A stretch of DNA of 64,000 nt from Yersinia enterocolitica. Its GTDB lineage: Bacteria; Pseudomonadota; Gammaproteobacteria; Enterobacterales; Enterobacteriaceae. Below are positions 12,767 to 58,848 of the stretch, in pieces. The stretch covers positions 3,844,001 to 3,908,000 of the forward strand of contig NBTC02000002.1 of assembly GCA_002082245.2 (NCBI GenBank), read 5' to 3'. The notes below the pieces were generated by a model. The model made no database searches. It saw only the letters and a program-made list of their open reading frames with translations, and was not told the DNA's origin. Both the position numbers and the translations under genes were made by a program. Within the stretch, counting starts at the first letter, position 1; the number at the start of each line of letters is the position of its first letter.

Positions 12767-12849
12767 ATTCAGAATAACGTAACTGCTCAGAGCTATCACC
12801 TTCATCTATCGTACGTTATTCCAATAGTTTTGGTATCTATTATTGGCTG

Positions 12850-13062
12850 TTACAGCGCAATAACATTTACCGCTGCTGGGCCTTTAGCGCCGTTCTCAAT
12901 AGAGAACTCCACGTTTTGGCCTTCATCTAAGGTTTTAAAATCATTACTCTGGATGGCAGAGAAGTGAACGAACACATCTTTGCTACCATCAGCAGGAGAG
13001 ATAAAACCAAAACCTTTATCAGCGTTAAACCATTTTACTAAACCAGTCATTTTATTAGACAT
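12850..13062 (-). CDS. Cold-shock protein, CspA family (downstream copy)
   Basis: A 70-residue cold-shock domain protein, a single OB-fold that binds single-stranded RNA and DNA and melts RNA structure in the cold. The RNP1 motif KGFGFISP and RNP2 motif VFVHFSAI are intact. The start [13 protein letters not shown] is preferred to an upstream in-frame extension because the family is about 70 residues and AAGGAAG lies just before. It is a near duplicate of the copy at 13328. No clear terminator separates the two, so a shared message is possible. Y. enterocolitica is known to have a tandem cspA1/cspA2 pair; this is very likely that locus. Confidence 0.93.
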
Positions 13063-13327
13063 AGAGATACTTCCTTCAATTATTTTTGATTGCCGCCATA
13101 GGCGAACGGATAGGCTTGGGTACAACTTATGGGGCACTTAGAAGGAATTTCGCGAAGAAGAGGTATCTGTCTGATAACGCTAATACGGAGAACTGCTTTA
13201 CTAAAACTGCTTGCATAAATGTTACTGTCAACCGGGTACTGCTTATTACTTTATTTGGAGAGCGGGTTACACTGCTCGGGTCTGGCCGTCATCGCTATCG
13301 GCAACCTGCTCCCCTAATCACGCTGTA
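13063..13327 (-). promoter_or_regulatory. Inter-csp region, long 5' leader of the downstream csp gene
   Basis: Minus-strand leader sequence of the type that controls cspA mRNA stability and cold translation. It shares segments with the leader of the other copy: the plus-strand block ACTGCTTTACTAAAACTGCT occurs at about 13194 and again at 13676, and the ribosome-binding region (minus-strand TTGAAGGAAGTATC) is the same. The similarity shows that leader and gene were duplicated together. Confidence 0.6.
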
Positions 13328-13540
13328 TTACAGAGCGACTACGTTTACCGCTGATGGGCCTTTAGCGCCGTTCTCAATAGAGAACTCAACTTTTTGACCT
13401 TCATCTAACGTTTTGAAATCATTGCTCTGGATGGCAGAGAAGTGTACGAACACATCTTTGCTACCATCAGCAGGGGTGATGAAACCAAAACCTTTACCAG
13501 CGTCAAACCATTTTACTAAACCAGTCATTTTATTAGACAT
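13328..13540 (-). CDS. Cold-shock protein, CspA family (upstream copy)
   Basis: A 70-residue cold-shock protein, about 90 percent identical by eye to the copy at 12850, with differences such as [13 protein letters not shown] against [16 protein letters not shown]1 (KGFGFITP) and RNP2 (VFVHFSAI) are intact. As an RNA chaperone it should bind single-stranded mRNA in the cytoplasm during cold adaptation. The chosen start MSNKMTGL follows AAGGAAG. This is the promoter-proximal gene of the tandem pair. Confidence 0.93.
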
Positions 13541-13720
13541 AGGGATACTTCCTTCAATTATTTTTTGCCACAATAGTGCGGCGAACGTGGTCTGTTTTTC
13601 AGCGGATTACTTATTTGGGCACTTAGGAGGAGACTCACGGAGAAGGGATATCTATGGATAACGCTTGAACTGAGGACTGCTTTACTAAAACTGCTTTCAT
13701 AAGGTCTGTGTTCCAAACCG
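13541..13720 (-). promoter_or_regulatory. Long 5' leader of the upstream csp gene
   Basis: About 180 bases of gene-free sequence before the upstream csp start, homologous to the leader of the downstream copy. In cspA-type genes a leader of about 160 bases forms a temperature-responsive structure. I did not find an exact E. coli-type cold box, so the leader call rests on position and on conservation between the two copies. Confidence 0.5.
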
Positions 13721-13937
13721 ATGAGGCTATTTAACCACAACACATTCCTCGTGGCAACACAATATTTGACTATCATAATCAGTATCAATGGTTTTTTCAT
13801 CTGGAATGGGGTGCGACGTAATGCCTTTTATGTTACTAAACAGCCTATTACACCGATAAAAGTTGTTGCTAAATTGTGGGGTAATATTTTGTGTTAATGC
13901 GCTCATAGCCGGAGGGGGATCCCCCCGGCTGGTTAAT

Positions 13938-51201: not shown

Positions 51202-51546
51202 GTGAATGATGTAGCCGCATTAAATGCCGCCGAGGAACCTGGAAAAGAAGAGGTAATGATTATTACTGAGCGGGTATTAGCTGAAATTACCGCAATGTTA
51301 AATAGTGAAAATATTTTTACCAATAAAGTTCAGCAACAAATGTTGACATCACATATCCGTGCCATGGTATTGCGTTCCATAACTGGTGAGCCATTACCTG
51401 AAGTGGATAAATCATTATTTGATGAGATTTCAGCACATTCGATGCAAATGGCCCAGCAAGTGGTCGATAAATTTGCCAATTTGCCCATTGAAGAAGCCTA
51501 TTTGTTGTCGGTGCATTTTGAAGTAGCGAAAGACAATAACCCATAA
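51202..51546 (+). CDS. Small single-PRD protein of the SFCGS/DUF4310 cassette
   Basis: A 114-residue soluble protein made almost wholly of one PTS regulation domain, the phospho-histidine-responsive helical domain of BglG-type regulators. The conserved His is in TSHIRAMVLRSITGEPLPEV, and a second in SVHFEV near the end. There is no DNA- or RNA-binding domain, so it probably acts as a phosphorylation-sensing partner of the large regulator at 56920. It corresponds to the family first noted as EF_0829/AHA_3910 in a conserved nine-gene cassette. A GTG start at 51202 has GGGG 10 bases upstream; an ATG at 51256 is an alternative that would give 96 residues. Confidence 0.75.
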   Translation: MNDVAALNAAEEPGKEEVMIITERVLAEITAMLNSENIFTNKVQQQMLTSHIRAMVLRSITGEPLPEVDKSLFDEISAHSMQMAQQVVDKFANLPIEEAYLLSVHFEVAKDNNP

Positions 51547-51569
51547 AACAGTGATCTGGAGAAGTGACT

Positions 51570-51935
51570 ATGAGTCAAATTACCGTTGTGATTGGCGACC
51601 GTTTAGGTAAAGGCCAAAAAGTGGGCCAGGGTGTTGAATTGGCTGGTGGCCGCGTAGTGGTTATTCCCGGTGTTGCCGCAGACATGAAATTGGGTGATGT
51701 GATGAACAGTGAAAAAGCTGACTTTGGCATTTCATTCTGCGGCAGTGGCGGTGCGGGCGCTATTACGGCGCAAAATAAATATGGTTACAAAGCAAAATAC
51801 GGCATGCGTTCTGTTGAAGAAGGCGTGACGGCAATAAATGAAGGCTGCAAAGTGCTGGGCTTCGGATTTATGGATAAAGAAGAATTAGGCCAGAGATTAG
51901 TCGACGCTTATATCAAGAAATACGGTCAACCGTAA
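51570..51935 (+). CDS. Glycine-rich SFCGS family protein, function unknown
   Basis: A 121-residue soluble protein named for the conserved motif ISFCGSGGAGAITAQNKYG (about residues 52-70), with an N-terminal MSQITVVIGDRLGKGQKVGQGVELAGG. A single conserved cysteine in a glycine-rich loop at the end of a beta-strand recalls the phosphorylated cysteine of PTS EIIB proteins; this is only an analogy. It is found in the cassette and lies 23 bases after the PRD gene. The ATG at 51570 is chosen over a GTG two codons earlier because CTGGAG lies 6 to 8 bases before it. It overlaps the next stop-start by one base. Confidence 0.8.
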   Translation: MSQITVVIGDRLGKGQKVGQGVELAGGRVVVIPGVAADMKLGDVMNSEKADFGISFCGSGGAGAITAQNKYGYKAKYGMRSVEEGVTAINEGCKVLGFGFMDKEELGQRLVDAYIKKYGQP

Positions 51936-52231
51936 TGAAAGAGCAATATACCACTCAGGTGCAAGTGAAAGGTAAAGGCGATACTAAGGAAAAAGCTTTC
52001 GCTAATGCACTCGGTAATGTCCAGAATACGGTGTTGAAATCGACACAAAATATTCTGTTACGGATTGAGCCACAAGACGTAAAAGTATTAAACGCAGAAT
52101 TATCAGTTAAAAATGAGAAGTTTTTATTCTTTTTCCTGCCGCGTGAAAGAAAGACATATAGCGTTGAATTAGATATTACCGTGAACGTGACAATTATTAA
52201 TACGGATAAGGTCGTCTTCATATCTAAATGA
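51935..52231 (+). CDS. DUF4312 family protein, function unknown
   Basis: A 98-residue small protein without membrane segments. Alternating polar and hydrophobic strands (YTTQVQVKGKGDTKEKAFANALGNVQNTV, then KTYSVELDITVNVTIINTDKVVFISK) suggest an alpha/beta fold. A central FLFFFLPRERKTY is hydrophobic enough to touch a membrane partner. Start and the previous stop share one base (TAATG), so it is co-translated with the SFCGS protein. I infer a soluble subunit of the DUF4310/4311 membrane system. Confidence 0.78.
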   Translation: MKEQYTTQVQVKGKGDTKEKAFANALGNVQNTVLKSTQNILLRIEPQDVKVLNAELSVKNEKFLFFFLPRERKTYSVELDITVNVTIINTDKVVFISK

Positions 52232-52244
52232 AAAGGATATACTG

Positions 52245-53021
52245 ATGTTTCTAATCATTCTTTTTAAGTCGATTATTATCGGCGGACTGGTCGGTGTGGG
52301 GGTAGGTGTTGGGGCCGCCCGTATGTTTCATGCACCGACAATACAGGGGATGGGGGCATTTCGTACCCTGGGCGAACTGAACTCATGCGAGGGAGATCCT
52401 GCATCGCACTTCTCCTTTGGATTAGGTTTCTTCTTCAACGCCTGGGCCTCTTCGGTGGCAGCAGGTGCCTTTACTCAGGACGTCGACCACCGCATCATTC
52501 CTAACTGGGGTGCCGCCGCATTAATGATTAAAAATCGTAATGTAGCGGAAACCATGCATAACCCGAAAAAGATGGCAATTGCCTGCGGGATTATCGGGGT
52601 TATTGTTGTCAGTTTCCTAAACACCACTGCTTCTGCGGTACCAGCAGCATTACAGGTTACGGCCATTAAAGTATTGGTACCAGCAGCAAATATTCTGGTT
52701 AACACCGTGATGCCGGTTATTTTCTGGCTGGCGGCTATTGATGCCGGGCGTCGCTCTGGTTTCTGGGCCACTATTTTTGGCGGGTTGGCTCAGCTAATTA
52801 TGGGTAACGCTGTACCTGGTCTAGTGTTGGGTATTTTAATTGGTAAAGGTGTTGAGGAAAGCGGCTGGAATAAAGTGACTAAGATCATGATGACAGTGAT
52901 TGTTCTGTTATTTGTGCTCAGTGGTTTCTTCCGCGGATTCGATCTGAAATTCCTGGAGTCATTTAGCCTGAGCGCGCCGGTTTGGCTCGATACCATTCAT
53001 AACGCATTGAGCGGAAAATAA
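52245..53021 (+). CDS. DUF4311 family membrane protein, probable transporter subunit
   Basis: A 258-residue polytopic inner-membrane protein with about six hydrophobic segments (about 4-30, 55-75, 103-125, 130-160, 170-200 and 215-235). Notable are the glycine zipper IIIGGLVGVGVGVGAARM and the polar loop LNSCEGDPASHFSFGLGFFFNAWASS, likely to matter for substrate. It has no similarity I can recall to known ABC, MFS or PTS EIIC proteins. It lies 13 bases after DUF4312 and 18 before DUF4310. Confidence 0.78.
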   Translation: MFLIILFKSIIIGGLVGVGVGVGAARMFHAPTIQGMGAFRTLGELNSCEGDPASHFSFGLGFFFNAWASSVAAGAFTQDVDHRIIPNWGAAALMIKNRNVAETMHNPKKMAIACGIIGVIVVSFLNTTASAVPAALQVTAIKVLVPAANILVNTVMPVIFWLAAIDAGRRSGFWATIFGGLAQLIMGNAVPGLVLGILIGKGVEESGWNKVTKIMMTVIVLLFVLSGFFRGFDLKFLESFSLSAPVWLDTIHNALSGK

Positions 53022-53039
53022 TACAACGAGAGGAGCTTG

Positions 53040-53693
53040 ATGATGGATGAACAAACCAAGAATAATTTCTGGTATGCCGACTGGTCATTTCCGATCTTTG
53101 TAGGATTATTATCCTCCGGCGTATTTGCGGGTACTCATATGTATTATTTATATGGTATCGGTGCATTTAACGAAGTGGCATTTGTTTCAATGCTACGTGC
53201 TGGTATGGATACCGGTGTTTATGGTGCGGTGGCGGCATTTGGTGCCAGCTTCTTATTCGCCCGTATTATTGAAGGTTCGCTTGTCGGTATTTTAGATATT
53301 GGTGGCGCGATTCAAACCGGTGTTGGTCTGGGTGTGCCAGCATTATTACTGGGCGCCGGATTTGTCTTCCCGGTGGCTAATTTTGCCGCCTCACTGGTAA
53401 CCGGCCTGATTATTGGTTTAGCTATCGGCTATCTGATTATTTTGGCGCGTAAATTTACGATTAACCAAAGTAATTCTACTTATGGTGCCGACGTTATGAT
53501 GGGGGCCGGTAACTCCTCTGGCCGTTTCCTCGGGCCATTGATTATCCTGTCAGCCATAACAGCATCAATTCCAATTGGGATTGGTTCTTTAGGTGGCGCT
53601 TTACTGTTTTATCTGTGGAATAAACCAATTACCGGCGGGGCGATTTTGGGTGCCATGATTTTAGGGTCTATTTTCCCAGTCGCTATTTCATGA
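53040..53693 (+). CDS. DUF4310 family membrane protein, probable transporter subunit
   Basis: About 218 residues of polytopic membrane protein with about six hydrophobic segments. It starts MMDEQTKNNFWYADWSFPIFVGLLSSGVFAGTHMYYLYG. The glycine-rich core GILDIGGAIQTGVGLGVPALLLGAG (about 80-105) and the loop YGADVMMGAGNSSGRFLGPL (about 150-170) look like a substrate path. AGGAG ends 4 bases before ATG at 53040; the next ATG at 53043 is equally possible. With DUF4311 it probably forms a two-subunit membrane channel. A stable hairpin follows, marking the end of the transport half of the cassette. Confidence 0.78.
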   Translation: MMDEQTKNNFWYADWSFPIFVGLLSSGVFAGTHMYYLYGIGAFNEVAFVSMLRAGMDTGVYGAVAAFGASFLFARIIEGSLVGILDIGGAIQTGVGLGVPALLLGAGFVFPVANFAASLVTGLIIGLAIGYLIILARKFTINQSNSTYGADVMMGAGNSSGRFLGPLIILSAITASIPIGIGSLGGALLFYLWNKPITGGAILGAMILGSIFPVAIS

Positions 53694-53696
53694 TGT

Positions 53697-53734
53697 CAGG
53701 GGTAAATATTCAAATTACCGGATATTTACCCTGC
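53697..53734 (+). promoter_or_regulatory. Intercistronic hairpin between transport and catabolic halves of the cassette
   Basis: CAGGGGTAAATAT and ATATTTACCCTG pair with one bulge over a 12-base loop, starting right after the DUF4310 stop codon. There is no T-run, so partial termination or mRNA processing is more likely than a full stop. Confidence 0.55.
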
Positions 53735-53766
53735 TAACACTGCTGCAACGTCAAGTAAGAAGGACA
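53734..53766. repeat. Orphan terminal fragment of an ERIC element upstream of the amidohydrolase gene
   Basis: CTAACACTGCTGCAACGTCA followed by AGTAAGAAGG is the reverse complement of the left end of the ERIC copy at 14450, nearly base for base. Only the tip is present. Confidence 0.6.
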
Positions 53767-53784
53767 TAATGGAGAATAAAGATA

Positions 53785-54954
53785 ATGTATGACTTTATTA
53801 TCACACGCGCACTATTAGTTGACGGCCGTCAGGTTAATATCGTAATTAATGATGGAAAAATTGTGGCCGTCGATGCGGCTATTACCACTGAAGATAATAA
53901 TCAAGCCGAGCCTTCAGTTTCTTGCGCTAAAAAAATGTTGGATTTGGCCGGGAAATATTACATCAGTGCTGGCTGGATTGATTCCCATGTGCATTGTTAC
54001 CCCGCATCTCCTATTTATCATGACGAAGCTGATTTGGTCGGAGTCGCCAGTGGCGTGACGACGGTGGTGGATGCCGGCAGCACTGGTGCCAATGATGTGG
54101 ATGATTTTTACCGCCTAACCCGTACCGCCAAAACCCATGTTTATGCTTTTCTGAATATTGCGAAAACCGGCATCGTGACGCAAAACGAATTAGCGGATAT
54201 GGCGCAGATTGATAAGCAAAGTGTCAGTCAGGCTATTGCCCGTAATCCTGGTTTTATTATCGGTATTAAAGCCCGCATGAGCAGCAGCGTGGTCGGTAAA
54301 AACGGCATTAAACCGTTGGTGCGAGCCAAAGAGATTCAACAAGAAAATAATCAGCTACCCTTGATGGTACATATTGGCAATAACCCGCCGGACTTGGATG
54401 AGATTGCCGACTTGTTAACGCAAGGCGATATTATTACTCACTGCTATAACGGTAAGCCCAATCGTATTCTGACCCCTGCCGGGACCTTGCGTGATTCTAT
54501 TCAACGCGCATTGAAACGCGGTGTATTACTGGATGTTGGGCATGGCAGTGCCAGTTTCAGCTTTGATGTTGCCGAACTGGCCATCAAGCAAGGTATTTAC
54601 CCGCACACCATCAGCTCCGACATCTATTGTCGCAACCGTATTAATGGGCCAGTGCACAGCCTGGCGACGGTGATGTCCAAATTTTTCACCCTCGGTTTGA
54701 GCCTTAAACAGGTTATTGCTTGTGTGACAGAAAATGCCGCGCAAGCCCTGAATTTGACTCACAAAGGGATGCTGGCAACGGGCTATGACGCTGACCTGAC
54801 GATTTTTGAGCTGAAACAGCAACCTCAGCTATTCAGTGATTCAGAAGGTAAATCGCTTACCGGTGAGACATATCTGGTGCCACTGGCGGCGGTCGTTGCT
54901 GGTGACGTAGTATTAACTGACGAAGGGAAGTCAAAAGATGTCTTCAGTCTATGA
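53785..54954 (+). CDS. Amidohydrolase/deacetylase-family metallohydrolase of the cassette
   Basis: A 389-residue cytoplasmic hydrolase of the amidohydrolase superfamily. Metal ligands: HxH at His68/His70 (DSHVHCYPAS), the probable carbamylated lysine in FIIGIKARMSSS, then histidines in LMVHIGNN and IITHCYNG and the catalytic Asp in TISSDIYCRN. The group (EF_0837/AHA_3915) is related to dihydroorotases and adenine deaminase and is always next to the PLP enzyme. Removal of an acyl or amide group from a 2-amino sugar acid is the likely job; this is inference. It begins the catabolic half and overlaps the next gene by 17 bases. Confidence 0.85.
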   Translation: MYDFIITRALLVDGRQVNIVINDGKIVAVDAAITTEDNNQAEPSVSCAKKMLDLAGKYYISAGWIDSHVHCYPASPIYHDEADLVGVASGVTTVVDAGSTGANDVDDFYRLTRTAKTHVYAFLNIAKTGIVTQNELADMAQIDKQSVSQAIARNPGFIIGIKARMSSSVVGKNGIKPLVRAKEIQQENNQLPLMVHIGNNPPDLDEIADLLTQGDIITHCYNGKPNRILTPAGTLRDSIQRALKRGVLLDVGHGSASFSFDVAELAIKQGIYPHTISSDIYCRNRINGPVHSLATVMSKFFTLGLSLKQVIACVTENAAQALNLTHKGMLATGYDADLTIFELKQQPQLFSDSEGKSLTGETYLVPLAAVVAGDVVLTDEGKSKDVFSL

Positions 54955-56050
54955 AAAATACCAGTTAAAACATGTAATTAATGCTTCTGGTCGCATGACG
55001 ATGTTGGGCGTTTCAACGCCACGGCAGGATGTGGTTGAGGCGGTAGATTTGGGCCTAAACCATTACTTCGAAATGAAAGATTTGGTCAATAAGACCGGTG
55101 CTTACATTGCTGATTTGCTGAATGTTGAGAGCGCGGTGGTTGTCTCCTGTGCTTCTGCCGGTATTGCTCAGTCGGTCGCTGCGGTGATCGTGAAAGATGA
55201 TGCCAATTTACTGGTTAATCTACATGCTGCCCCGCGCGCAGTGCCACACGAAATTGTTCTGCCGAAGGGCCATAACGTTAATTTCGGTGCGCCGGTCGAT
55301 ACCATGGTGACGCTGGGGGGAGGCAAAGTGGTGGAAGCCGGTTATGCCAACGAATGTTTACCGGAACAGTTGGAAGCGGCGATCACGCCAAATACTGCGG
55401 CGATCTTGTATATAAAATCCCACCATTGTGTGCAAAAAAGCATTCTATCCGTTGAGCAAGCGGTAGTGATTGCGCGCAAGCATCAATTGCCATTAATTGT
55501 TGATGCGGCCGCAGAAGAAGACTTGCAATGTTATTACCAGATGGGTGCAGATTTGGTGATTTACAGCGGTGCCAAAGCTATTGAAGGGCCAACCAGCGGG
55601 CTGGTGTTAGGCAAGAAAACCTATATTGATTGGGTGAAGTTGCAATCAAGTGGTATTGGCCGGGCGATGAAAGTGGGTAAAGAGGGTATTCTCGGCCTGA
55701 CCCGTGCTATTGAAAGCTATATGACGCTGGAAAAAGAGACCGGCCAGCAAATGGTAGAAAAAATGACACCATTTATCAGTCAGTTAAATACCATTGACGG
55801 CGTGTCTGCGAAAGTGGTTTGGGATGCTGCCGGGCGTGATATTGCCCGTACTGAAATCAGTTTTGATGAAGCTAAAATGGGGCGCTCGACACCGGATCTG
55901 GTGGATGCGCTGAAAAATGGCGATATTGCTATCTACTTCCGCGCCTATAAAGCTAATGAAGGCAAAATTGAAGTGGATGTGCGCAGTGTCACGCCATCAC
56001 AACTCGAGATAATTTATACCTGCATTAACCGCCTGGCTAAGGGAGCCTGA
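54938..56050 (+). CDS. PLP-dependent lyase, DgaE-like (D-glucosaminate-6-phosphate ammonia-lyase family)
   Basis: A 370-residue SelA-related enzyme. The PLP-binding lysine is Lys213 in IYSGAKAIEGPTSGLVLG. SCASAGIAQSVAAVI (about 70-85) binds phosphate and LPLIVDAAAEEDL carries the aspartate that holds the pyridine ring. Salmonella DgaE removes ammonia from D-glucosaminate-6-phosphate to give 2-keto-3-deoxygluconate-6-phosphate. This protein is the cassette version (AHA_3916-like), so its substrate could be the same or an isomer. The start lies 17 bases inside the amidohydrolase gene; the aldolase gene follows after three bases. Confidence 0.85.
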   Translation: MSSVYEKYQLKHVINASGRMTMLGVSTPRQDVVEAVDLGLNHYFEMKDLVNKTGAYIADLLNVESAVVVSCASAGIAQSVAAVIVKDDANLLVNLHAAPRAVPHEIVLPKGHNVNFGAPVDTMVTLGGGKVVEAGYANECLPEQLEAAITPNTAAILYIKSHHCVQKSILSVEQAVVIARKHQLPLIVDAAAEEDLQCYYQMGADLVIYSGAKAIEGPTSGLVLGKKTYIDWVKLQSSGIGRAMKVGKEGILGLTRAIESYMTLEKETGQQMVEKMTPFISQLNTIDGVSAKVVWDAAGRDIARTEISFDEAKMGRSTPDLVDALKNGDIAIYFRAYKANEGKIEVDVRSVTPSQLEIIYTCINRLAKGA

Positions 56051-56053
56051 CCA

Positions 56054-56794
56054 ATGAAACTGACCCCGAATTATTACCGTGACCGGGTGTGCCTGAATGT
56101 GTTAGCCGGTTCAAAAGAGAATGCACGCGAGATTTATCAAGCCGCTGAAGGCCATGTCCTGGTGGGGGTGCTATCGAAGAACTATTCTGATGTCGACAGC
56201 GCAGTCAAAGATATGCGCGAATACGCGGCTGTTATCGATAATGCCCTGTCGGTAGGGTTGGGCGCGGGGGATCCGAAGCAATCAACAATGGTCAGCCAGA
56301 TTTCACAGCAGGTGCAACCGCAACATGTGAATCAGGTATTTACTGGTGTTGGCCCAAGTCGTGCTTTATTGGGGCAGCATGATACTGTGGTGAATGGCTT
56401 GATTTCACCGACCGGCAAAGTGGGTTACGTAAATATCTCCACCGGGCCACTCAGTTCACAGCAAAAGGAAGCGATTGTTCCAGTGACCACCGCCATTGCT
56501 ATGTTGAAAGATATGGGCGGCAGTTCGCTAAAGTTTTTCCCAATGAACGGGCTGGACTCTATCGATGAATACCGTTTTGTGGCTGAGGCTTGTGCTGCTA
56601 CCGGCTTCTGGTTGGAACCCACCGGCGGCATCAGTCTGGATAATTTTGAACAAATCGTACAAATTGCACTGGATGCTGGGGTAACGAAAATTATCCCGCA
56701 TATCTACAGTTCGATAATCGACAGCAAAACGGGCAATACTCGCCCAGAAGATGTGCGAACCTTATTAGCTATCGTGAAAAAAATAGTACCGTAA
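56054..56794 (+). CDS. KDPG-type aldolase, DgaF-like (2-dehydro-3-deoxyphosphogluconate aldolase family)
   Basis: A 246-residue class I aldolase-like protein. The TIM-barrel strands NISTGPLSSQQKEAIVPVTTAIAMLKDMGGSSLKFFPMNGL (about 118-160) include the likely Schiff-base lysine in SLKFFPM, and FWLEPTGGISLDNF (about 185) binds the phosphate. Salmonella DgaF cleaves 2-keto-3-deoxygluconate-6-phosphate to pyruvate and glyceraldehyde-3-phosphate. It is larger than the usual 213-residue KDPG aldolase and belongs to the EF_0839/AHA_3917 group. It ends the catabolic operon, 3 bases after the PLP enzyme. Confidence 0.85.
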   Translation: MKLTPNYYRDRVCLNVLAGSKENAREIYQAAEGHVLVGVLSKNYSDVDSAVKDMREYAAVIDNALSVGLGAGDPKQSTMVSQISQQVQPQHVNQVFTGVGPSRALLGQHDTVVNGLISPTGKVGYVNISTGPLSSQQKEAIVPVTTAIAMLKDMGGSSLKFFPMNGLDSIDEYRFVAEACAATGFWLEPTGGISLDNFEQIVQIALDAGVTKIIPHIYSSIIDSKTGNTRPEDVRTLLAIVKKIVP

Positions 56795-56860
56795 TTATTT
56801 GATTTACCTTATATAAAATCACTAGCGGTGAAGGCCTGTGTTGCCGTGTGAGATAACGCT

Positions 56861-56886
56861 CCCCCTCTGGCCATGGTGGCGGGGGG
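56861..56886. promoter_or_regulatory. C/G-rich inverted repeat before the regulator gene
   Basis: CCCCC (56861-56865) and GGGGG (56882-56886) flank an inner GGCCATGG. It lacks a T-run and may be an operator or a transcript-end hairpin between the aldolase and regulator genes. Confidence 0.35.
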
Positions 56887-56919
56887 ATGCCCATACACCC
56901 TGAATAACGGAGTGGAGCA

Positions 56920-58848
56920 GTGAGATTTCCCTATCAACGTCTGGCCTACATGTTCGATGCATTGCAATCGGAAACGCTGCCTCAGGATGAGCTGGCGAAA
57001 CGTTTTGCGGTTTCGACACGTACCGTGCGGGCAGATATTACGGCGTTGAATGAGATCCTTGAACATTATGGTGCGCACTTTATCCATAACCGTGGCTTTG
57101 GCTACCGATTGATGATCGATGATGCTGAACGCTTTCGTGCTCTACAGCAGCAAAACCGCAAAATGCACCTAACCCCGCGAACTGCCAATGAGCGAGTGCA
57201 TTACCTGTTAATCCGTTTTCTGACCTCTGCTTTTTCATTGAAGCTGGAAGATTTAGCTGATGAATGGTTCGTTAGCCGTGGCACATTGCAAAATGATATG
57301 GCTGAGGTGAGAGAAAGGCTAAACCGATACCATCTGACGATTGAAACCAAGCCACGCTACGGCATGAAATTGTTTGGTGCCGAGTTGGCTGTCCGCACGT
57401 GTTTGACCGACCTTTTGTTTCAGCTACATCTGCAAGATGCTGATAACCCATTATTAAAAAATGAGTTTCTTAACATTCAGACTATCCCCGAATTAACGGG
57501 ATTGCTGCATGAGCTATTGGCGCAATATGCGGTACGGCTAACTGATGAGGGTGAGCACTACCTTATTTTCTACTGTGCTGTGGCGATAAAACGCATCGCC
57601 GACGGTTATCCGTTATCAGATTTTGATGCCGAAGATGTGGATGAGGCGGTCAAACTCGCCTCCGGCCGTTTGGCAAATGAGTTGAAACTATTATCGGGCA
57701 AAGACATTTCGGCAGCAGAAGAAGCGTATTTGCGGGTCAATATTGCCGCCCGCCGAGTGCAAGTCAGTCAGCCTGGTACCAGTCGCCCCAGTGAAATCAA
57801 CGCCGATGATGAAGAGACATTGGTGGATTACATCCTCTCTTATATCAACGCCCACTATAACTACAATTTGCAGGGCGATAAGCAGTTACGAATTGATTTA
57901 CTCACCCATATCAAGACCATGATTACGCGGGTGAAGTATCAGATAACTATCCCTAATCCATTGTTATCCAATATAAAACAGCACTATCCGATGGCTTATG
58001 ACGTAACACTGGCGGCGGTATCCAGTTGGGGCAAATATACGCCTTATAGCTTGAGTGAGAATGAGATAGGCTATCTGGTACTGCACATTGGTGTTGGGTT
58101 GGAACGCCATTACAATATTGGTTATCAACGTCACCCACAGGTGATGTTGGTGTGTGATACCGGTAACTCCACTACCCGAATGATTCAGGCACAGATTGTT
58201 CGTAAGTATCCGCAGATCGTGATGACACAAACCATTTCCCTGCGTGATTACGAAAATCTCGACCATATCGACGAAGATTTTATTATTTCTAATTCACGTC
58301 TGGCGGAAAAGAATAAGCCGGTGGTAGTAATGTCACCGTTTCCGACTGAATATCAGTTAGAACAACTGGGTAAGTTGGTGCTAGTGGATCGCACTCGCCC
58401 TTATATGTTGGAAAAGTTTTTCGACAGTAATCATTTTATGATTATCGACCAGCCGATGACACAAGAGCAGTTATTTAAAAAAGTGTGCAGTCAGTTGGAA
58501 GAGGAAGGGTTCGTTGATGCGGACTTTTACCCATCGGTGGTGGAGCGTGAGGCGATTGTCTCCACTATGCTGGGGGAGGGGATTGCACTGCCACACTCAC
58601 TCGGCCTGTTAGCCAAAAAGACCGTGGTGGTTACCCTGTTGGCTCCCAATGGCATTGCCTGGGGTGATGGTGAGGTAGCCCATGTCATTTTCCTGTTAGC
58701 TATCAGTAAAACTGACTATGAAGAAGCGATGGCGATTTACGACTTGTTCGTTACTTTTGTGCGAGAGCGTTCAATGAGCCGTTTATTGAGCAGTCAGCAT
58801 TTTGATAGCTTCAAGGCGATAGCGATTGATTGTTTGAGTCGAATTTGA
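56920..58848 (+). CDS. PRD-containing transcriptional regulator with EIIB and EIIA domains
   Basis: A 642-residue regulator of the LicR/MtlR type. Order: helix-turn-helix (about 5-60, ELAKRFAVSTRTVRADITALN), second HTH/Mga-like part (about 85-140), PRD1 (about 180-290), PRD2 (about 295-400), EIIB-like domain with Cys412 in VCDTGNSTTRM and EIIA(fructose/mannitol)-like domain with His559 in ALPHSLGL. Such proteins bind DNA and are switched by PTS phosphorylation at PRD, EIIB and EIIA. A GTG start at 56920 is supported by GGAG 7 bases upstream; an ATG at residue 11 is possible. Found on the cassette strand, it probably controls it. No PTS permease gene is near, so the EIIA domain may also donate phosphate to another component. 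Confidence 0.88.
   Translation: MRFPYQRLAYMFDALQSETLPQDELAKRFAVSTRTVRADITALNEILEHYGAHFIHNRGFGYRLMIDDAERFRALQQQNRKMHLTPRTANERVHYLLIRFLTSAFSLKLEDLADEWFVSRGTLQNDMAEVRERLNRYHLTIETKPRYGMKLFGAELAVRTCLTDLLFQLHLQDADNPLLKNEFLNIQTIPELTGLLHELLAQYAVRLTDEGEHYLIFYCAVAIKRIADGYPLSDFDAEDVDEAVKLASGRLANELKLLSGKDISAAEEAYLRVNIAARRVQVSQPGTSRPSEINADDEETLVDYILSYINAHYNYNLQGDKQLRIDLLTHIKTMITRVKYQITIPNPLLSNIKQHYPMAYDVTLAAVSSWGKYTPYSLSENEIGYLVLHIGVGLERHYNIGYQRHPQVMLVCDTGNSTTRMIQAQIVRKYPQIVMTQTISLRDYENLDHIDEDFIISNSRLAEKNKPVVVMSPFPTEYQLEQLGKLVLVDRTRPYMLEKFFDSNHFMIIDQPMTQEQLFKKVCSQLEEEGFVDADFYPSVVEREAIVSTMLGEGIALPHSLGLLAKKTVVVTLLAPNGIAWGDGEVAHVIFLLAISKTDYEEAMAIYDLFVTFVRERSMSRLLSSQHFDSFKAIAIDCLSRI

Follow-up and report, generated by a model that had tools for sequence, protein, structure and literature searches.

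The closest described systems are two enterobacterial operons. The dgaABCDEF operon of Salmonella is reportedly a D-glucosaminate system with a mannose-family phosphotransferase system (PTS), an account attributed to Miller et al. 2013. The yhf operon of E. coli, listed in NC_000913 as yhfS (a pyridoxal phosphate (PLP) protein), yhfT (membrane), yhfU (DUF2620), php, yhfW, yhfX, yhfY (a PRD protein) and yhfZ, is annotated there, as yhfSTUVWXYZ, only as putative or uncharacterised genes. Here we analysed a window of 64,000 nucleotides of Yersinia enterocolitica (contig NBTC02000002.1, positions 3,844,001 to 3,908,000) and characterized a nine-gene cassette at 51202..58848 on its plus strand. All nine open reading frames (ORFs) are open at these coordinates, and NCBIfam and Pfam matches agree with the families named in a preliminary description of this DNA, save for one domain, an EIIB. 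The cassette as such is already catalogued, since most of its families have NCBIfam models that take their names from EF_0829 to EF_0839; these families (TIGR03577-TIGR03583; EF_0829-EF_0839 / AHA_3910-3917) are the same protein families as those of the cassette and are listed as hypothetical equivalogs, without a catalogued function. Our favoured reading, in which confidence and doubt are about evenly balanced, is that the cassette is an operon for the PTS-linked uptake and breakdown of an aldonic amino-sugar acid carrying an N-acyl group, with N-acetyl-D-glucosaminate or its C2 epimer as the best guess.

The cassette had been described as known from Enterococcus and Aeromonas only, and turned out to be far more widespread: in a one-genome-per-species collection, 565 stretches matched the pattern and 474 of them were confirmed to encode a DUF4311 relative. 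Pantoea agglomerans and Serratia plymuthica are among the carriers. A gene-neighbourhood survey of the four orphan families (SFCGS, DUF4312, DUF4311 and DUF4310), as earlier proposed, was read from the best 80 of these 474 stretches, all Enterobacterales by their titles, with split frames counted as one gene. The nine genes stand in a single order on a single strand in 76 of the 80 loci, and the exceptions are two contig-end cuts (L041, L091), a missing DUF4312 call (L053) and a regulator gene lying upstream (L078). Given this conserved order, the cassette is not a chance assembly. It is also compact: of the 76 complete loci, 75 have no internal gap larger than 512 bases. In the exception, from Yersinia aldovae, a gap of 1735 bases separates the aldolase and regulator genes (L020:14539-16273), at a place where other species may carry a lactonase gene; tblastn with the Klebsiella lactonase, the only protein tested there, gave no match at E ≤ 1e-3.

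Eleven named Yersinia loci carry DUF4311 with 97-100% identity, and DUF4310 is present in 23 of the 25 genomes of a genus sample. The other two also lack a DgaF and a DgaE-family match above cut-off, and the cassette is therefore missing there as a unit, by joint loss. In a sample of 345 genomes at the level of the GTDB order, 54 had DUF4311 above cut-off, and 53 of these, and no others, had SFCGS above cut-off as well; the sole DUF4311 match without SFCGS begins at base 71 of its contig. Elsewhere the cassette is patchy, being found in none of 16 order relatives and in 7 of 299 genomes of a phylum sample. Five weak, partial DUF4311 matches lie outside any cassette (E 8e-6 to 3e-4; G812:C28, G293:C45, G236:C60, G660:C5 and G579:C1); they may represent remote membrane relatives or have arisen by chance.

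The substrate class is indicated by the enzymes, whose NCBIfam bit scores, like those of the other cassette proteins, were judged by curated cut-offs. The PLP-dependent ammonia-lyase of the DgaE family (54938..56050) falls within the TIGR01437 subfamily (595 vs 385 bits), and DgaF, the 2-keto-3-deoxygluconate 6-phosphate (KDGP) aldolase (56054..56794; solved relative 3lm7), scored 409 bits with TIGR03581 and passed the cut-off of the DgaF equivalog NF047796 (398.5 vs 300 bits). For the Salmonella lyase, an excerpt of PMC9529869 uses manual docking to place the phosphate near Arg301, Arg332 and Arg346 and demonstrates that His163 donates the proton. Alignment to 7lc0 equates these residues with R304, R335, R349 and His163 of the window lyase, and all 41 cassette lyases compared have these four residues. 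(The PLP lysine is numbered 217 in that excerpt vs chain position 213, while its arginine and histidine numbers match the chain.) Because the phosphate arginines are conserved and the aldolase exceeds the DgaF cut-off, the lyase substrate most likely carries a 6-phosphate, consistent with the 2-amino-2-deoxy sugar acid 6-phosphate predicted before. The product being KDGP, C2 and C3 of the substrate are not fixed.

An acylated substrate had likewise been predicted, and the amidohydrolase/deacetylase (53785..54954; TIGR03583, 553 bits; solved relatives 8wzy, 2ics and 2ogj) is consistent with one. Its residues H68, H70, K162, H196, H219 and D279, which we take to be a metal-site-like set, are invariant in 60 of 60 sequences. 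Atu3266, a member of the same amidohydrolase group, reportedly accepts N-acetyl-D-serine and acetyl-(R)-mandelate as substrates, and N-acetyl-D-glucosaminate, a 2R N-acetyl amino acid, would suit this reported preference. A gene for a PF10282-type lactonase lies between those for DgaF and the regulator in 30 of the 80 loci and in a Klebsiella record (assigned by Pfam for the Klebsiella protein and by BLASTP to that protein for the remaining loci), and the N-termini resembled secretion signals by eye in all seven that were read, from six of the 30 loci and Klebsiella. The lactonase and its putative signals fit an extracellular lactone of an aldonic acid. From the combination of lactonase, acyl-removing enzyme and phospho-amino-aldonate lyase, our narrowest guess at the substrate is N-acetyl-D-glucosaminate (or the mannosaminate epimer) together with its lactone; the C2 epimer stays a candidate because the lyase destroys the stereochemistry of C2 and C3.

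We next turn to the SFCGS protein (51570..51935; TIGR03577/PF14272, 223.7 bits with TIGR03577), for which the ATG at 51570 fits most relatives (120-121 aa) and the ORF finder picks a GTG at 51564. It had been proposed to be a IIB-like phosphocysteine protein. A structure search with its predicted model pointed instead to a Rossmann-type RpiB/LacAB fold, in which the SFCGS cysteine aligns with the catalytic base of RpiB; among the 50 matches listed, the single IIB protein (lactose IIB, 3nbm) stood at rank 49 with a template modelling (TM) score of 0.36. The cysteine is invariant in 60 of 60 sequences and is located at a strand end ahead of a helix. Residue roles in E. coli RpiB (catalytic Cys66, active-site Asp) were taken from excerpts of PMC4783025 and PMC3755991, and the first 40 of the 60 SFCGS rows were compared with 29 RpiB sequences by alignment rather than by coordinates. 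The catalytic Cys and the active-site Asp are each kept in all 40 SFCGS rows. The phosphate-binding His of RpiB is replaced by Arg in 40 of 40, the ring-opening His (a His in 23 of the 29 RpiB rows) by Asn in 32 of 40, and both C-terminal phosphate arginines fall in a gap in all 40, the SFCGS C-terminus being shorter. SFCGS further differs from RpiB/LacAB in the CGTG motif, with Ser for Thr. The window protein scores below the Pfam cut-off of PF02502 (16.5 vs 24.7 bits), and 57 of 76 SFCGS members match that family at E ≤ 1, the best at 1.7e-4.

A protein of similar type is encoded in the yhf operon. In a profile comparison the score between SFCGS and YhfU was matched by none of 40 shuffles, and LacAB_rpiB is the second Pfam match of YhfU (E 0.065). 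YhfU immediately precedes YhfT in 9 of 9 loci, and a YhfY-like PRD protein was seen in 4 of 9 short YhfU loci. The cassette has a counterpart of E. coli YhfY in its solo PRD protein (51202..51546), which is related to YhfY by BLASTP (3e-7, one comparison) and by hhalign (probability 93); it matches TIGR03582 well above the curated cut-off (131.5 bits) and falls under that of Pfam (20.8 vs 23). We regard SFCGS and YhfU as the probable two branches of one RpiB-fold family, whose members accompany membrane proteins and PRD regulators. A YhfT/YhfU pair is also present in the host genome of the window (G000:C2:4587168-4588812; L104, L136), so that both branches of the proposed system occur in one genome.

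Between the SFCGS and amidohydrolase genes lie those for DUF4312, a small soluble protein (51935..52231; TIGR03578, 133.6 bits), and for two membrane proteins that we propose as permease halves, DUF4311 (52245..53021; TIGR03580, 503.3 bits) and DUF4310 (53037..53693; TIGR03579, 390.7 bits). DUF4312 shows a beta-helix-beta-beta pattern by eye, with a conserved FLFxF segment and then an invariant Arg. We infer that DUF4310 and DUF4311 form a transporter. The profile match of DUF4310 to YhfT is weak (E 0.0017), with its score reached by none of 40 shuffles. Concatenated DUF4311 and DUF4310 matched YhfT locally over 76 columns (E 8.8e-4; none of 60 shuffles). When the setting was permissive, a path that preserved the order spanned 385 columns. 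PTS_EIIC was matched neither by the two window proteins (Pfam, E ≤ 10) nor by 48 members of their alignments (E ≤ 1). As far as sequence comparison goes, the parallel between cassette and yhf appears strong for the PRD and RpiB-like proteins and suggestive for the membrane part; by BLASTP it is absent for the PLP enzyme (YhfS is not detectably close to the lyase, E 0.20) and for each membrane protein.

A link to the PTS, as previously suggested, is supported by both regulators. The last gene (56920..58848) encodes a helix-turn-helix/Mga-PRD-EIIA regulator with Pfam matches to PRD and to PTS_EIIA_2 (E 2.9e-19). All 43 sequences compared keep its EIIA His559 and its PRD His330 and His389, and H51 and H105 of the solo PRD protein are kept in 38 of 38. 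Of the PRD/EIIB/EIIA architecture first assigned to this regulator, PRD and EIIA held up; the EIIB part had no Pfam match at E ≤ 10, and contains, by our own reading, a CxxG motif at residues 412-415, with C412 present in 38 of 43 sequences. In Bartonella, the HY406 and HY761 plasmids carry the nine genes and, directly after the regulator, a gene for a 671-residue HPr-EI protein, whose top non-Bartonella plasmid match is 55% identical and adjoins ptsG. This adjacency suggests that the cassette needs PTS phosphate, be it for transport or for control. The annotation of the HY406 plasmid, the plasmid only, lists no further PTS transport gene. These plasmids also carry mirrored duplicate blocks (L177:274-7254, L174:121-7085) of genes for a replication initiator, a toxin of the RelE/ParE type and ParA. 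On the HY406 plasmid, the cassette has a type VI secretion cluster as its neighbour.

The Enterococcus version of the cassette is larger. Between DUF4310 and the amidohydrolase (L101:13620-16355) it has an insert encoding a PTS EIIC, a 99-residue hydrophobic protein that Pfam left unmatched at E ≤ 0.01, and a 6-phospho-muramidase of the MupG type. This insert hints at a disaccharide form of the substrate. In the E. faecalis record the DgaF-like gene is split across two overlapping frames and unannotated (L101:18573-19315). Excerpts of published work name duplicates in E. faecalis dgaE and dgaF (PMC7396535) and report that the promoter of ef_0839 or ef_2975 is urine-induced (PMC2912369).

On these grounds the favoured operon would work as follows. 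Where present, the secreted lactonase would open the lactone outside the cell. DUF4311 and DUF4310 would together act as the permease, corresponding as a gene pair to YhfT, one protein in E. coli (weak profile matches), and SFCGS, with its predicted RpiB/LacAB fold, would be its soluble partner as YhfU may be to YhfT, its Cys/Gly-rich pocket binding the incoming sugar acid or its phosphate. The substrate would be 6-phosphorylated before the lyase step, as the conserved arginines imply, with the phosphoryl group most likely delivered via the PTS. By homology, the amidohydrolase would take off the acyl group, the DgaE-like lyase would yield KDGP and ammonia, and DgaF would cleave KDGP to pyruvate and glyceraldehyde-3-phosphate, while the solo PRD protein and the PRD/EIIA regulator would control the operon by sensing PTS phosphorylation.

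A number of results weigh against this reading. The lyase misses the DgaE equivalog NF047797 (369 vs 600 bits) and has Lys in place of the carboxylate-side Arg226 of the Salmonella enzyme. With the SFCGS profile, zero RpiB chains were found among PDB sequences at E ≤ 10, and single-sequence phmmer reached RpiB only at E 0.29. The model of the membrane part is poor (predicted local distance difference test 66.7, predicted TM score 0.46) and gave zero matches in a structure search. DUF4311 alone did not rise above shuffles when compared with YhfT (24 of 40 reached its score), and BLASTP linked neither membrane protein to YhfT. An attempt to align the joined pair with YhfT from end to end failed, with a score of 0.67 that 14 of 15 shuffles exceeded. 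The two Bartonella plasmids are near-identical and therefore count as a single case. Finally, the E. faecalis cassette (one record) adds its own PTS EIIC and a PfkB kinase at its end, and Pfam detected neither EIIA nor EIIB (E ≤ 0.01) in the one Enterococcus regulator examined. The composition described for the cassette is thus not universal. Among the nine window proteins, NCBIfam and Pfam list no mannose-family permease domain.

The PfkB kinase brings up a possible but doubtful alternative, in which the membrane pair works as a conventional carrier that leaves its cargo unphosphorylated, an unlinked kinase phosphorylates the substrate, the PTS link is regulatory only and SFCGS is a soluble isomerase or epimerase of the pathway. 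The isomerase fold, with its catalytic Cys and active-site Asp, is what such an enzyme would show, and the PRD/EIIA proteins are regulators, which the Bartonella HPr-EI would serve equally well. An aldonate, however, offers no aldehyde for an RpiB-type reaction, as a matter of general chemistry, and SFCGS lacks the phosphate His, ring-opening His and C-terminal arginines of RpiB. Membrane genes lie at most one gene away from both SFCGS and YhfU, and, L020 excepted, complete loci with gaps of at most 512 bases are too tight for a kinase gene within the cassette.

The fold also bears on the proposal in which SFCGS would serve as the IIB component of a novel PTS permease and receive phosphate on its cysteine from the regulator EIIA, with DUF4310/4311 as IIC. 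An invariant cysteine at a strand end ahead of a helix, an invariant EIIA His559 and a dedicated HPr-EI in Bartonella would all be expected of such a permease, but we consider it unlikely given the RpiB/LacAB fold and the low rank of the lone IIB match. SFCGS also has no similarity to the IIB-like part of the regulator (hhalign E 0.43), no EIIA was detected in the one Enterococcus regulator examined and the membrane pair lacks a PTS_EIIC match. More improbable still is a membrane enzyme or sensor complex made of DUF4310, DUF4311, DUF4312 and SFCGS, the substrate entering via another carrier. The Enterococcus cassette does encode its own EIIC alongside the four genes, and the membrane model matched no transporter. 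Against this, 75 of the 76 complete proteobacterial loci (again excepting L020) are too tight for another transporter gene, no other transporter is annotated inside the cassette on the two Bartonella plasmids, and the yhf operon, where SFCGS and DUF4312 are not annotated, again places an RpiB-like protein next to a membrane protein. Altogether, the preliminary interpretation is partly supported: the substrate class and the PTS link gain support, and the IIB-like cysteine does not.

Extending the PTS-linked operon to both systems, we tentatively put forward a new uptake class, a proposal more likely to fail than to hold. In it, an isomerase-descended protein of RpiB/LacAB fold would have become the soluble subunit of a permease, with two branches, SFCGS-DUF4311/DUF4310 (with DUF4312) and YhfU-YhfT, tied to a solo PRD protein and partly powered or gated by the PTS, with no classical IIB. 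The SFCGS fold, the operon pairing and the narrow substrate class make the uncharacterised cassette and the yhf operon testable. If the permease reading is true, it would add a mode of transport that relies on a subunit derived from an isomerase, and would explain bacterial use of acetylated amino-sugar acids.

Apart from the cassette, the window, which comes from a genome of 5.07 Mb, holds a Yersinia small RNA by Rfam and two tandem cspA-type thermoregulator RNAs (12818-13722, minus strand), both well above the gathering score.

Compared with known systems, the cassette shares with Salmonella dga a DgaE-family lyase with the 6-phosphate arginines and a DgaF aldolase; in place of the mannose-type PTS it has four uncharacterised proteins, an amidohydrolase and two PRD proteins. 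With yhf it has in common a PRD protein, an RpiB-like Cys protein adjoining a membrane protein, a putative hydrolase (Php, presumably of the amidohydrolase class) and a PLP enzyme. Unlike the cassette, yhf has a single 434-residue YhfT, has no DUF4312, SFCGS or KDGP aldolase annotated, and adds the mutase YhfW and the PLP protein YhfX.

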